This document shows positions 34,510 to 39,955 of a stretch of DNA of 64,000 bases, piece after piece. Positions within the stretch are counted from its first letter, which is position 1. Every line of letters starts with the position of its first letter. The position numbers and the translations under genes were made by a program. Source of the stretch: Phycisphaerales bacterium. Lineage in GTDB: Bacteria > Planctomycetota > Phycisphaerae > Phycisphaerales > UBA1924. The notes beneath the pieces were generated by a model that searched no databases, was not told where the DNA came from, and worked only from the letters and a program-made list of their open reading frames with translations. The DNA lies in assembly GCA_030149165.1 (NCBI GenBank), contig JASBRY010000008.1, forward strand, positions 372,001-436,000, written 5' to 3'.

Positions 34510-34583
34510 GGGCCTGTAGCTCAGTTGGCTAGAGCGCACCGCTGATAACGGTGAGGTCGACAGTTCGAGTCTGTCCAGGCCCA
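34510..34583 (+). tRNA. tRNA-Ile (GAT)
   Basis: GGGCCTG...CAGGCCC acceptor, D-arm GTAGCTCAGTTGGCTAGAGC, anticodon loop CTGATAA, T-arm GACAGTTCGAGTCTGTC. Confidence 0.95.
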
Positions 34584-35860
34584 TTCAAGTCATTCCGCAA
34601 GGAATGGCAACGAGATGAAGGGACCGGCATAAACGCTGGTCCCTTATCTATTTGTGACTGGTTTTGTTGCTCGTTGCCGTTTGTCGCCGCTTGCTGCTGC
34701 GACGCGTTTTGCGACAAAAGTGCGCCGCATATTGCGCCGCTTTGTGTGATCGGATTCGTTACCGCTTTGGTGAAATCTTCATCGCGCACCATGTGGTAGT
34801 GCGACTCTCCTACGGCTTGCGTGTGCCCCATCCACGAGGTGCAGACCGCTGCGGGATACTCCGCCGCCAGTTCAGTCGCTCGGCTCGCTCGCATCGAGTT
34901 GAAGAGTCTCGGCCAGGGTTCAAGACCTGCTCGCTCGATGATCCGGAGCAGTTGGGTGCGTAGGTTCGCCTTTGGATCTCTGTAACCCGATACGACAAAC
35001 TCAGCCCCGCTCTCAGCGAGTTCAAAGGCATTGAGCAAGACCGCATGGAGTTCAGGGAAGAGCGGGATGATCCGCTCTGACTTCCCAAGGTGCCGCTCTG
35101 TCTTTGGTGATCGTACACGGAGTTTCAGCCCCGCCCAGTCCACATCAGCCCAGCGGACCAGCAAGACCTCTGAGGGGCAACGGAGGCCGCCCAAACGAGC
35201 GAGCGCGATGATGCATCGCCAGTCCGCGTTTGGTGCGGCATCAATAAGCCTGTGGGTCGATTCCGGATCGAGGTAGAATAGCCGTTCACGGTTTGTCTGC
35301 GACCCTGCGACCACACCATCGAACGGGTTGCGTACCAGCATCTCCCATCGCACGGCTTTGCGCATGAACATCTTGGCGACCGAGATCTCTTTCGAGACCT
35401 TTGCCGGCGCATAGCCCTTGGTTTCGAGCCAGGTGCGGTATGCGTCTGCATCGCGAGATGAGATGTCATCAATCGGCCGGCCCTCACCGAAGCACTCGTA
35501 GAGGATCCGCCTGGATTGCTTGTAGCGGGTCATCGTGGAGTCCTTGACACTCATGGACTCGAAACACGCATTGAGCAGATCCCCGAGTGTGTGCTGCGTG
35601 TGGTGCAGCCGGGGCTCGACGAGTTGGGCTTTGAGTAATCGATCGTGGATCTCATCGGGGAGCGATGCGACCCAGTCTGCTGTCTGGGCATCTATAGCGG
35701 TTCCAGTGCGATCAGCTGTGATCAATGACTCAACCCTGATCTTGAATGCCTCGGCTGCTTTGACGCTCACCTTCCCCAACCTGATCGTGTGTCGTTTCTT
35801 GTTGGCATCAATGAACAGGATGCGTTTGGTTCCGTTTTTGTCGCGTGATATAGATGCCAT
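34529..35860 (-). CDS. Tyrosine recombinase/phage-type integrase; C-terminus reads antisense into tRNA-Ile
   Basis: Catalytic patches ALARLGGLRCPSEVLLVRWADVDW, RASRATELAAEYP, MGHTQAVGESHYHMV; terminal PGQTRTVDLTVISGAL is encoded by the antisense strand of the tRNA. Confidence 0.92.
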   Translation of the reverse strand: MASISRDKNGTKRILFIDANKKRHTIRLGKVSVKAAEAFKIRVESLITADRTGTAIDAQTADWVASLPDEIHDRLLKAQLVEPRLHHTQHTLGDLLNACFESMSVKDSTMTRYKQSRRILYECFGEGRPIDDISSRDADAYRTWLETKGYAPAKVSKEISVAKMFMRKAVRWEMLVRNPFDGVVAGSQTNRERLFYLDPESTHRLIDAAPNADWRCIIALARLGGLRCPSEVLLVRWADVDWAGLKLRVRSPKTERHLGKSERIIPLFPELHAVLLNAFELAESGAEFVVSGYRDPKANLRTQLLRIIERAGLEPWPRLFNSMRASRATELAAEYPAAVCTSWMGHTQAVGESHYHMVRDEDFTKAVTNPITQSGAICGALLSQNASQQQAATNGNEQQNQSQIDKGPAFMPVPSSRCHSLRNDLNGPGQTRTVDLTVISGAL

Positions 35861-35942
35861 TGATACCTCCTGCCGAAATTCTACCACACTCAAATTTCAA
35901 GTGGAACCAGAAACTTGAGAAACCGAAAAGTATCCACTGATC

Positions 35943-36143
35943 CTATTTACGCACTTGCTGACGCTGGACAAACTCTTCGAGATCACTCACCCTGATCAAC
36001 ACGGCACGGTTGATCTTCGAGTGAGGGATCTCACCGCTCTTGAGTAGAGTGAAAAGGGTCCTCGACGAAATCCCCAACGCTTCAGCGGCTTCATTGATCC
36101 GTAGCGTGATTCGTGATTGTTCAGTTGTTTTTTTCGAACTCAT
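35943..36143 (-). CDS. AlpA/excisionase-like helix-turn-helix protein
   Basis: ITLRINEAAEALGISSRTLFTLLKSGEIPHSKINRAVLIRVSDLEEFVQRQQ. Confidence 0.85.
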   Translation of the reverse strand: MSSKKTTEQSRITLRINEAAEALGISSRTLFTLLKSGEIPHSKINRAVLIRVSDLEEFVQRQQVRK

Positions 36144-36309
36144 ACATCCACCCTTCAAAAGACAAAAGCTGCTTGAGAACATCAAAGTTGTGTTCCTGTT
36201 CCTACATTACCACTCAATCGAGATAGTCGCAGCAACCCACACAAAATGGAACAAACTGCGATCTGAACCAAACCTTCAGTGGCGCTTCCGATCCAATGAC
36301 GCTATAATG

Positions 36310-36710
36310 AATTGGGGAAGGGGTGTATGAACTGCCGAGATCCAGTGGGGTGCTGCAATCACATGCAGCAATCGGCAATAAGCAGAAACAGCCGAACCTG
36401 ATCTCGGTGCTTGTCATTGAGGTGATATTTCATGAGTCGCAACTCCCCGATTACGAGCGCGTGCGCAGGGAGATACCAATCGGAGCGGGGTGGCGTCGAC
36501 GCACTTACCCGCGTGTCCGAATCGAACCATCGATTTACAGACCGAACTATCGGTTTCTGGGGGGGCTAGGTTGACGGCAGGGTGAAAACCGCTGATGCCG
36601 GGGGAAATACAGCGGGCGGAAAGCGACGGCTGGCTCCGGGTGGGCAGATTCGCTTCAAACGCATCGATCCGTAAGGGGTCGGTGCGCTCAGGCTTCACCA
36701 GGTGAACAGT
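36310..36710 (+). ncRNA. Candidate structured non-coding RNA or structured DNA segment (class unknown; boundaries and strand approximate)
   Basis: Coding-poor GC-rich interval with several small hairpins (36520-36535, 36541-36554, GGT-GAAA-ACC at 36581-36590, 36660-36686 with a GTAA loop) and a possible pseudoknot CGGCA(36575)/TGCCG(36596) interleaved with CCGCTG(36589)/CAGCGG(36610). Confidence 0.35.
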
Positions 36711-36823
36711 TCTACCACATTCCGAAATGAACATTCAATTCAAACAACATTGAATCCGACTTCTATCGATGAATGGGAGATAGGAGAAGGTCCAAAATCG
36801 GCGGTGAGTTTTTTTCGGGATTT

Positions 36824-36851
36824 TTGCCACATCTCCACCACATCGTATATT
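36824..36851 (+). promoter_or_regulatory. Putative sigma70-type promoter for the restriction-modification gene
   Basis: TTGCCA - 16 nt - TATATT, about 50 nt before the start at 36899. Confidence 0.4.
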
Positions 36852-36898
36852 CCATGACAAGTGGACAAACTCGCTCCAATACACGATGATCTAGTTAC

Positions 36899-39800
36899 AT
36901 GGACACCCCCACCTTCATCGCCAAATGGTCAAAGGCCAAGCTCTCTGAACGAGCCGCGTCGCAGGAACACTTTATTGATCTCTGTCGATTACTCGGGGTC
37001 CAGACTCCCGCTGAGGTTGATCCTGTAGGAGACACCTTCACCTTCGAGAAAGGCGTGAAGGTCGCCGGCCCCGCATCCTCTGGATCGAAGGGGGCGCATG
37101 GATGGGCTGATGTCTGGTACAAGGGACGCTTCGCGTGGGAGTACAAACGCAAGGACAAATACCGGAATCTTGAAGAGGCGTACCGCCAGCTCCAGCAATA
37201 CCGCGAGGACCTCGACAATCCGCCGTTGATGATTGTCAGCGATATTGCGAACTACGAGATCCATACCAACTTCACTGGATACAAACCCGAGGTCCATTCG
37301 TTCACCCTCGAAGAACTCTCAGACCCCGGCAAGCTCTCGTTGCTCAAGCGGGTGTTCACGGATCCGAAGTCATTCAAGCCGTCGATCACTGTTGCCGCGA
37401 TCACTGAGGAGGTCGCGTCCAAGATCGGGACGATCGCGCAAGCGTTGCGGGATCGTGGGCATGAGCCGCATGATGCGGCACATTTCTTGATGAAGGTGAT
37501 GTTCTGCCTCTTTGCCGAGGATGTTGAGTTGCTTCCAAAGGGACTCTTCCAGCGAGTGCTCACCAAATCCAAAGACGATCCCGTTCGTCTCCAGAAACAG
37601 ATGGATGCCCTCTTCGATGCGATGCGATCGGGCGGGGACTTTGGGGTTGATGAAATCAGCTACTTCAATGGTGGTCTCTTCGATGATGCCCATTCCATTG
37701 AACTCACCACGGACGAAATCGAGATCCTCATCGACGCGGCTGTCCAAGACTGGTCGGTGATCGAACCCTCCATTCTCGGCACGCTCTTTGAACGCTCCCT
37801 TGACCCCTCCAAGCGTTCGCAGATCGGGGCGCACTACACCAGCCGGGAAGACATCATGCTGGTCATTGAGCCGGTGATCGTGCGGCCGCTCCGCAAGCAG
37901 TGGGAAGAGACCAAAGAGCAGATCGAGACGCAGCTCCAGCGCCGGCGCAAATCGACGACCAAAGCGACCAAAGCGAAAGCGGATGCCGAGATTGCCAACC
38001 TGCTTGATGGGTTCCAAGAGAAGCTCTCGTCTGTCCGCGTCCTTGATCCCGCGTGTGGCTCAGGGAACTTCCTCTATGTTGCGATCCAGCAGCTCCTCTT
38101 CCTCGAAAAGGAAGTCGTCCTCTACGCATCGCGCGAGGAACTCGGGTTTGGTGGTTTGCTGCCGCGCGTCCGACCGACGCAACTGCTTGGGATCGAGATC
38201 AATCCCTACGCCTCGGAACTCGCACAGGTGGCGATCTGGATCGGATACCTCCAATGGATGCGAGACAACGGCTTCAACGCACCGAAGGACCCCATCCTCG
38301 AACCCATCGACACGATCGAGAACAGAGACGCGATCCTCGCTTGGGCGGATGAAGACGGCAAGAAGATCCCGGTGTGGCGCGAAGGGGCGAAGTGCTTGGG
38401 GCAAGCGAAATGGCCGAAGGCGGATTTCATTGTGGGGAATCCGCCGTTTTTGGGATCGAAAGTGTTCAGACAGAATGGTTTGCCAGACCCGTATGTAGAA
38501 CAGATGTACGCAAACTTTCAGCTTCCGAATACCGTTGACCTTTGCTGCTACTGGTTTGATATTGCAGCCAGATATATTGCCAAGAAAACTGACCGCCGGA
38601 TTGGGTTGCTTGCCACACAAGCTATAAGAGGCGGCGACAACAGAACAGTACTCACCAATCTTTGTCGATTGGGACAGATTTTTGATACTTGGCCAGATAA
38701 GCCATGGGTATTAGACGGCGCAGCTGTACGGGTATCGATAGTTTGTGTGTGCAGCGAATCGATAGGCGAAGCGTCATTCGTCAATGGGAATCCAGCACTA
38801 GCGATCACACCAGAGCTAGTTGTTGGAGTGAGTTTAGGTGATACTCTGAAACTCGATGAAAATCGGGATATATGCTGGATGGGTGTTACCAAAGGTGGCT
38901 CCTTCGATGTGGCACTATCCGAAGCGCGCGAACTACTCTCTGCCCCTACCGCAAATGGACGGAAACCATCGGATGTTTTCTACCCATGGTACAACGGGTT
39001 GGACATGACACGAAGGCCTCGTTCAATGTGGCTTGTTTCATTTATGGAGTCCATGTCACAGGCTGACGCAGCGGGATTCGATGCGCTTTTCCGGATAGTT
39101 GAAGAACGAGTAAAGCCCAAGAGACTTACGAATCGCCGCGCGCTATACGCCGAACGCTGGTGGATTCATGCCGAGGCGCGCTCTGGTCTTCAAACGATAC
39201 TGAGGAAACAAGGGCGATATCTTGCTACACCTCGTGTTACTAAGCACCGACTCTTTGCATGGCTGAATGGCAAAATCCTACCAGACTGTCAAGTATTCGC
39301 ATTTGCTCGTTCCGACGACTACTTCTTCGGCACCCTCCACAGCAGCATCCACGAACTCTGGGCACTGCGGCAAGGCACGCAACTCGAAGACCGTCCACGC
39401 TACACCCCCACCACTTGCTTCGAGACCTTCCCGCTTCCCTGGTCGCCGGGGGATGAGCCGCGCGAGGGTGATACGCAGCGTCCGCTCCATGATGCGATCG
39501 GGGATGCTGCGGCGACGCTCAACGAGCAGCGCGAGCGTTGGCTGAATCCTCCGGAGTGGGTGAAGCCGATCGCGGACAAGATCGATGCGGAGGATGACTT
39601 TGCTGATGTGCTCGCGGTCAGCGGCGAGGAAGCTCGGCGTTTGATCCGTCAGAGCGCGATTGATGCCGCGTGCGCCAAGGACAAGAACCTCAAGAAGCGC
39701 ACACTGACCAACCTCTACAACGAGCGACCGACCTGGCTCCGGCTCGCGCACAAAGCGCTCGATGAAGCCGTGATCGCGGCGTACGCTGCCGTCGATCCTG

Positions 39801-39955
39801 AGGGTGACTGGGACACGGCTTGGGCGGAGGTGTTCGAGGAGACCGGAGCGGGGCAGCCTTTACCTGAGGGTCATGCACTGATCGAGCAGCGGCAAGAAGT
39901 GGAGCAGTTGATTTTGGGGAATCTGCTGCGGATGAATCAGGAACGGTCGCGCTGA
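36899..39955 (+). CDS. MmeI-like type IIL restriction-modification enzyme (fused nuclease-methyltransferase-TRD)
   Basis: N-terminal nuclease-like GWADVWYKGRFAWEYKRK, MTase motif I LDPACGSGNFLYVAIQQL, motif IV VGNPPFLGS; single 1018-aa polypeptide. Confidence 0.88.
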   Translation: MDTPTFIAKWSKAKLSERAASQEHFIDLCRLLGVQTPAEVDPVGDTFTFEKGVKVAGPASSGSKGAHGWADVWYKGRFAWEYKRKDKYRNLEEAYRQLQQYREDLDNPPLMIVSDIANYEIHTNFTGYKPEVHSFTLEELSDPGKLSLLKRVFTDPKSFKPSITVAAITEEVASKIGTIAQALRDRGHEPHDAAHFLMKVMFCLFAEDVELLPKGLFQRVLTKSKDDPVRLQKQMDALFDAMRSGGDFGVDEISYFNGGLFDDAHSIELTTDEIEILIDAAVQDWSVIEPSILGTLFERSLDPSKRSQIGAHYTSREDIMLVIEPVIVRPLRKQWEETKEQIETQLQRRRKSTTKATKAKADAEIANLLDGFQEKLSSVRVLDPACGSGNFLYVAIQQLLFLEKEVVLYASREELGFGGLLPRVRPTQLLGIEINPYASELAQVAIWIGYLQWMRDNGFNAPKDPILEPIDTIENRDAILAWADEDGKKIPVWREGAKCLGQAKWPKADFIVGNPPFLGSKVFRQNGLPDPYVEQMYANFQLPNTVDLCCYWFDIAARYIAKKTDRRIGLLATQAIRGGDNRTVLTNLCRLGQIFDTWPDKPWVLDGAAVRVSIVCVCSESIGEASFVNGNPALAITPELVVGVSLGDTLKLDENRDICWMGVTKGGSFDVALSEARELLSAPTANGRKPSDVFYPWYNGLDMTRRPRSMWLVSFMESMSQADAAGFDALFRIVEERVKPKRLTNRRALYAERWWIHAEARSGLQTILRKQGRYLATPRVTKHRLFAWLNGKILPDCQVFAFARSDDYFFGTLHSSIHELWALRQGTQLEDRPRYTPTTCFETFPLPWSPGDEPREGDTQRPLHDAIGDAAATLNEQRERWLNPPEWVKPIADKIDAEDDFADVLAVSGEEARRLIRQSAIDAACAKDKNLKKRTLTNLYNERPTWLRLAHKALDEAVIAAYAAVDPEGDWDTAWAEVFEETGAGQPLPEGHALIEQRQEVEQLILGNLLRMNQERSR

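Follow-up and report, generated by a model that had tools for sequence, protein, structure and literature searches.

Locus and boundaries of the segment

In the window (the whole 64,000-nt stretch analyzed here), about 0.4 kb lies between the AlpA-like gene of a tRNA-Ile island and a type IIL restriction-modification (RM) gene, and the question is what this segment encodes. The gene order is tRNA-Ile, integrase and alpA (minus), then the segment and the MmeI-like gene (plus):

34510 to 34583, plus strand: tRNA-Ile (GAT), presumed integration site of the island
34529 to 35893, minus strand: tyrosine integrase (Pfam PF00589), its 3' end overlapping the tRNA gene
35943 to 36143, minus strand: AlpA/excisionase-like HTH_17 gene (Pfam HTH_17, 1e-13; PHROG 66 and 1840, excisionase)
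36303 to 36308, plus strand: TATAAT, candidate -10 box read from the sequence, a perfect match
36316 to 36723, plus strand: proposed structured non-coding RNA of ~0.41 kb (end-pairing minimum-energy fold, z -2.63; relative in UBA1926)
36899 to 39955, plus strand: MmeI-like (type IIL) RM gene (Pfam MmeI domains), downstream of the RNA

The integrase reading frame terminates within the tRNA-Ile gene (34529-34583), on the opposite strand. No second exact copy of 12 nt or more of the tRNA was found in the window that would mark where the island stops on its right side.

The segment is present in a single copy in its genome and has a GC content of 57%, with flanks at 45% and 41%. An earlier sequence-only reading had proposed a non-coding RNA here; within the limits that it drew, folding gave z-scores of -1.71 on the plus strand and -2.16 on the minus strand. 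With bounds of 36316-36724, z was -2.63 and the minimum-energy (MFE) fold paired both ends. The proposal is partly supported, and its boundaries are now sharper. Random 409-nt pieces of the window folded at a mean of -141.5 kcal/mol and a lowest value of -168.5 kcal/mol, against -159.9 kcal/mol for the segment. Folding energy alone is weak evidence, and both the stability and the strand difference are ordinary for this GC-rich genome; it is the relative found in Phycisphaerales bacterium UBA1926 (below) that raises the segment above chance.

The TATAAT at 36303-36308 is the sole plus-strand copy in the 755-bp gap between alpA and the RM gene. The motif occurred somewhere in 16% of shuffled gaps, and in the 27 nt before the RNA in ~1% of the shuffles. 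From its position, transcription is predicted to start at ~36314-36317, and this box would serve as the RNA's own promoter. No good -35 box was seen for this candidate, and no clear intrinsic terminator downstream of the RNA. The 3' end of the RNA (36713-36719) carries the sequence TACCAC(A), as do the regions upstream of the integrase (35882-35888) and of alpA (36208-36213). On the minus strand, these sites read TGTGGTAGAAT, which resembles an extended -10 box; a minus-strand promoter at the 3' end of the RNA would yield an antisense transcript.

Predicted fold of the RNA

The predicted fold, all on the plus strand, is made up of the following elements:

36316 to 36334: closing stem P1, 5' strand (core GAACUG, 36329-36334)
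36335 to 36407: P2, CCGAGAUC/GAUCUCGG closing a three-way junction that holds the hairpins UGCUGC/GCAGCA and UCGGC/GCCGA
36442 to 36474: P3, hairpin CUCCC/GGGAG, absent from the relative and overlapping the sister-island motif at 36452-36474
36477 to 36573: helix Po, CAAUC (36477-36481) with GGUUG (36569-36573), compared with UCACCACG/CGUGGUGA of the relative
36485 to 36512: hairpin A, GCGGG/CCCGC, with the apical motif GGCGUCGACGCACU (36492-36505) common to the relative
36520 to 36554: two similar hairpins, AATCGA/TCGATT and ACCGA/TCGGT, with one hairpin instead in the relative
36575 to 36615: pseudoknot core, comprising Pa CGGCA/UGCCG, hairpin GGU-GAAA-ACC, Pb CGCUG/CAGCG and a linker with AAAUA
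36621 to 36655: Pc AAGCGA/UCGCUU with inner Pe CUG-CUC/GGGCAG, in the window fold
36660 to 36686: Pd, 11-bp hairpin with a GUAA tetraloop and G-U pairs, AGGGGUCGGU being common to the relative
36707 to 36723: closing stem P1, 3' strand (core CAGUUC, 36707-36712; counterpart in the relative CAGUUUGAA)

In the MFE fold, the 5' end, GGAAGGGG...GAACUG, pairs with the 3' end, CAGUUC...UUCC, up to 36723; taken alone, this closing duplex is modest (p ~0.02). Po, which encloses hairpin A and the two small hairpins, is the least certain helix of the window RNA. The GAAA and GUAA tetraloops and the G-U pairs would favour the plus strand.

Each hairpin named by the sequence-only reading was found: AATCGA/TCGATT at 36520-36535, ACCGA/TCGGT at 36541-36554, GGT-GAAA-ACC at 36581-36590 and CGCATCGATCC/GGGGTCGGTGCG at 36660-36686. 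A further one, TTCACC-A-GGTGAA (36694-36706), is present in its letters and is better read as TTCAC-CAG-GTGAA, because a 1-nt loop is impossible; the predicted fold also draws it in this way. The "many compact hairpins" that it had emphasized are thus all there, but they are not significant by themselves. The interleaved pairs from which an H-type pseudoknot had been proposed, CGGCA (36575-36579) with TGCCG (36596-36600) and CCGCTG (36589-36594) with CAGCGG (36610-36615), are also in place.

A relative with compensatory changes

A one-sequence covariance model was built from 36514-36688 and run on 163 genomes of the family. The best match outside the window (25.5 bits, E 1.8e-4 per genome) lay in genome G212, on contig DDFO01000027.1 of UBA1926; taken alone, this match has an E of ~0.03 after correction for the 163 genomes. 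Over an aligned core of 66 nt, the two sequences are 77% identical.

All 10 pairs of the pseudoknot (Pa and Pb) are kept in the relative. Pa is fully paired, with one compensatory change from C-G to G-C, and Pb is paired in 5 of 5 positions, with one compensatory change from U-A to G-C. Sliding the partners by 1-3 columns lowered the pairing from 100% to 20-45%. Pb is independent evidence, because it lies outside the structure of the model and its two changes cost sequence score. As the RNA family has only two members, the covariation rests on two double changes, and a control in which the 3' letters were shuffled (131/500) has almost no power with two sequences. With both of its helices showing compensatory changes, a real H-type pseudoknot is supported, and the absence of covariation by which the sequence-only reading could have fallen was not observed. 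A fold kept by compensatory changes in a relative is the mark of a structured RNA, here in two sequences only.

Several features beyond the search model agree between the two RNAs. The anchor GGCGNCGACGCACU is 13/14 identical and collinear in the relative. The relative's closing stem, CAACUG/CAGUU(U)G (locus L080, ~1764), was significant against shuffles (p 0.0009), and its core AACUG/CAGUU is common to both RNAs and appears in the unconstrained folds of both; in the relative, this stem depends on the ends chosen, being in the MFE fold with a longer 5' end and not with a slightly shorter one. The unconstrained MFE fold of the relative also has, after P1, a three-way junction (closing helix GUGAU-GUC/GACAUCAC) and, as an equivalent of Pc/Pe, a hairpin UGAU/AUCA with CCCG/CGGG. 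Immediately ahead of its pseudoknot, the relative has a helix of 8 bp (shuffle p 0.005), to which CAAUC/GGUUG corresponds in the window. As a whole, the relative's RNA folds at z -3.57 (0/100 shuffles).

Could a GC-rich intergenic stretch with ordinary hairpins have met its UBA1926 match by coincidence? The energy statistics are weak, there is one relative, and its family-wide E is ~0.03. However, the agreement of features outside the search model (the Pb change, P1, the hairpin A anchor, the three-way junction and the integrase/excisionase context), together with the finding that 0 of the 20 other pattern matches over 85,000 species have both helices, makes coincidence very improbable.

The alignment also bears on the reading that the segment holds a small protein-coding gene missed by annotation, or the remains of a gene, in the form of the minus-strand open reading frame (ORF) at 36414-36734 or the plus-strand one at 36323-36574. 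The minus ORF runs for 106 codons without a stop, but it has no Pfam or PHROG match and no protein-level conservation in the relative, where all three antisense frames contain stops. The 66-nt aligned core has gaps of 1, 1 and 2 nt. By codon usage, the two ORFs scored -0.08 and 0.00 per codon, whereas the integrase and RM genes scored 0.12-0.17; the test is weak for short ORFs, as the real short AlpA gene itself reaches only 0.02. The sequence evidence thus appears largely to refute a protein gene, which we regard as the least credible of the readings, and the sequence-only reading was right to see no coding gene here.

Genomic context and proposed mode of action

In UBA1926, the elements follow one another on one strand in the order tRNA-Gly, tyrosine integrase, a 210-aa HTH protein, an HTH_17/excisionase-like gene, the RNA and a 100-aa ORF that begins ~82 nt after the RNA. 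At a tRNA gene, both loci thus carry an integrase together with an HTH gene of the excisionase type; the orientation of the RNA to alpA and the downstream gene differ.

These differences weigh on the possibility that the segment is a long 5' leader controlling the downstream plus-strand gene, here the MmeI-like RM gene. The RM gene is on the same strand as the RNA, which ends 176 nt upstream of it, the small ORF of UBA1926 likewise follows its RNA on the same strand, and sister islands carry a true leader pseudoknot before another gene. However, the downstream genes of the two elements are unrelated, and the ends of the RNA can pair together, as those of independent RNAs do. Moreover, conservation of the RM promoter region (36840-36899) extends to five same-genus sister islands whose integrase and RM gene are of the window's kind and which lack the RNA. 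Because the downstream genes and orientations differ, and because islands without the RNA keep the RM promoter region, a cis leader is unlikely and an RNA acting in trans is favoured. For the same reason of differing gene neighbourhoods, a cis-regulatory role, one form of the regulatory RNA that the sequence-only reading had considered, is disfavoured.

Another reading is that the segment acts as DNA: its hairpins would belong to a site of recombination, transfer or replication, or it would hold binding sites for the integrase or AlpA. It adjoins int and alpA, it contains the palindromic TTCACCAGGTGAA, its 23-bp motif at 36452-36474 resembles one upstream of the sister-island RM gene, and TACCACA occurs both upstream of int and at the RNA's 3' end. 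Against this, the conserved single-stranded loops GGGUGAAA and AAAUA, the GNRA-type tetraloops, the G-U pairs and the compensatory pseudoknot pairs are all features of RNA. The shared 23-bp motif sits in a part that is absent from the relative, and no relaxase or replication gene was seen adjoining the segment. We consider a DNA site decidedly improbable. The suggestion of a regulatory or defence RNA or an origin holds as far as an RNA-type element is concerned, but nothing points to defence or to a replication or transfer origin.

Taken with the conserved pseudoknot, this context argues that the segment is probably the gene of a free-standing structured non-coding RNA of ~0.41 kb on the plus strand, with its own promoter, carried by small tRNA-integrated elements with a tyrosine integrase and an AlpA/excisionase-type HTH gene. 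Pairing of the 5' and 3' ends in P1 would close the RNA body, which would hold the three-way junction, a hairpin-bearing domain and the H-type pseudoknot core with its GAAA-capped hairpin. Such an RNA may act in trans and serve the element rather than a neighbouring gene: it would control the genes that the element carries, or the element's mobility, probably together with a protein. Regulation or support of these genes or of mobility is the most likely role, though a weakly supported one. More tentatively, and with considerable doubt, the RNA might represent a new class of mobile-element RNA, working as a ribonucleoprotein or ribozyme on which the tRNA-integrated elements of Phycisphaerales would depend for their life cycle (excision, copy control or exclusion).

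Searches for known families and further members

The sequence-only reading could not match the segment to RNase P, tmRNA, 6S, SRP or intron signatures, and the Rfam cmscan likewise gave no match. Across the 4227 families of Rfam 15 (including riboswitches, GOLLD, ROOL and STAXI), the scan of the window matched only tRNA at the gathering threshold; at E values up to 10, the segment and the UBA1926 relative gave junk only. Group I introns and ribozymes are marked by a conserved catalytic core and by self-cleavage; for the core, no intron family matched, and no host gene is interrupted. Because CUGAUG is changed to CGGAUG in the relative, a hammerhead-like reading (CUGAUG...GAAA) was set aside.

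No similar sequence was found by a DNA search of 150 relatives, plasmids and phages. The other family matches of the model reach 20.8 bits at most; the core is not shared by them, and they appear to be chance matches. No third member emerged when models were run on 392 phylum genomes (where matches in G445, G303 and G089 were rejected for want of the pseudoknot) or on 60 integrase regions, nor from pattern scans of the family and of 397 genomes of the class. A pattern scan of ~85,000 species genomes gave no further member, with 20 of 21 genome-contig matches failing Pa or Pb, and plasmid, phage and viral scans gave no other convincing one; the viral-contig matches were coding or lacked Pa. A structure descriptor run over all collected loci returned the two members and two pattern-selected matches, L128 and L130, which were rejected as they fail Pa. 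The reach of these searches is bounded by the fixed letters that the patterns need and by the few candidates that whole-genome model searches score.

Comparison with RNAs of mobile elements

The int-alpA RNA motif of Rfam is a structured RNA tied to the integrase and AlpA genes of integrative elements, and it sits between these two genes. The RNA described here is also associated with an int and AlpA/excisionase element, but it lies beyond alpA (int, alpA, RNA) and outside the int-alpA pair, is ~0.4 kb long with a closing stem, occurs in Planctomycetota and has no covariance-model match. The c4 antisense RNA of P4-like elements is element-encoded and trans-acting, as we infer for the present RNA, but c4 is much smaller and gave no match.

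In STAXI, which is found close to integrases and other genes for DNA handling, one pseudoknot occurs as two or three tandem copies (Genome Biol 2010, PMC2864571). The likeness is a pseudoknot-based motif near an integrase; however, a single Pa/Pb pseudoknot is found here, within a larger closed fold, with no repeat family and no model match. GOLLD and ROOL are large structured RNAs of phages and prophages, often near tRNA genes, ROOL being ~0.66 kb and GOLLD often >0.8 kb (Nature 2025, PMC12286853). They share with the present RNA a place in mobile elements near tRNA genes, but the latter measures 0.35-0.41 kb, belongs to small integrase elements and has no cmscan match. RNAs of the GOLLD/ROOL type are further marked by homo-oligomeric complexes made of RNA alone.

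The RNA is best regarded as a new family of a known kind, the structured RNAs that mobile elements carry. The functions of GOLLD, ROOL, int-alpA and STAXI are mostly unknown, and an undescribed family with a defined fold is added to them, with predicted ends and a candidate promoter and small enough to test. It also indicates that RNAs of this kind can be very rare, as two members were found, both within a single family, and the scan of ~85,000 species genomes gave no more.

Other features of the island and its sisters

In four sister islands, a sequence ~100 bp upstream of the RM gene, TACGCGCGCGTGCGCGAGGGGAT, is similar to the 23-bp motif at 36452-36474, TACGAGCGCGTGCGCAGGGAGAT, which is perhaps a DNA-binding site within the segment. 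The anticodon arm of tRNA-Ile, ACCGCTGATAACGG (34538-34551), matches ACCGCTGATGCCGG of the pseudoknot (36588-36601) at 12 of 14 positions, probably by chance, since the relative does not keep the match. Among same-genus relatives of the integrase (L003-L010), a large gene, possibly primase/helicase-like, often lies directly upstream and is absent from the window's island.

Four sister islands (L062 at 6037, plus; L063 at 7457, L066 at 6907 and L072 at 7078, all minus) carry a conserved leader before a small gene that faces alpA. This leader has no Rfam match and is not present in the window's genome. It consists of a ~14-bp stem whose loop, TTCACCTTCC, can pair with the downstream Shine-Dalgarno sequence, GGAAGGTGAA, to form a pseudoknot, and it looks like a translational control element. 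The stem varies between islands, and its changes are mostly compensated.
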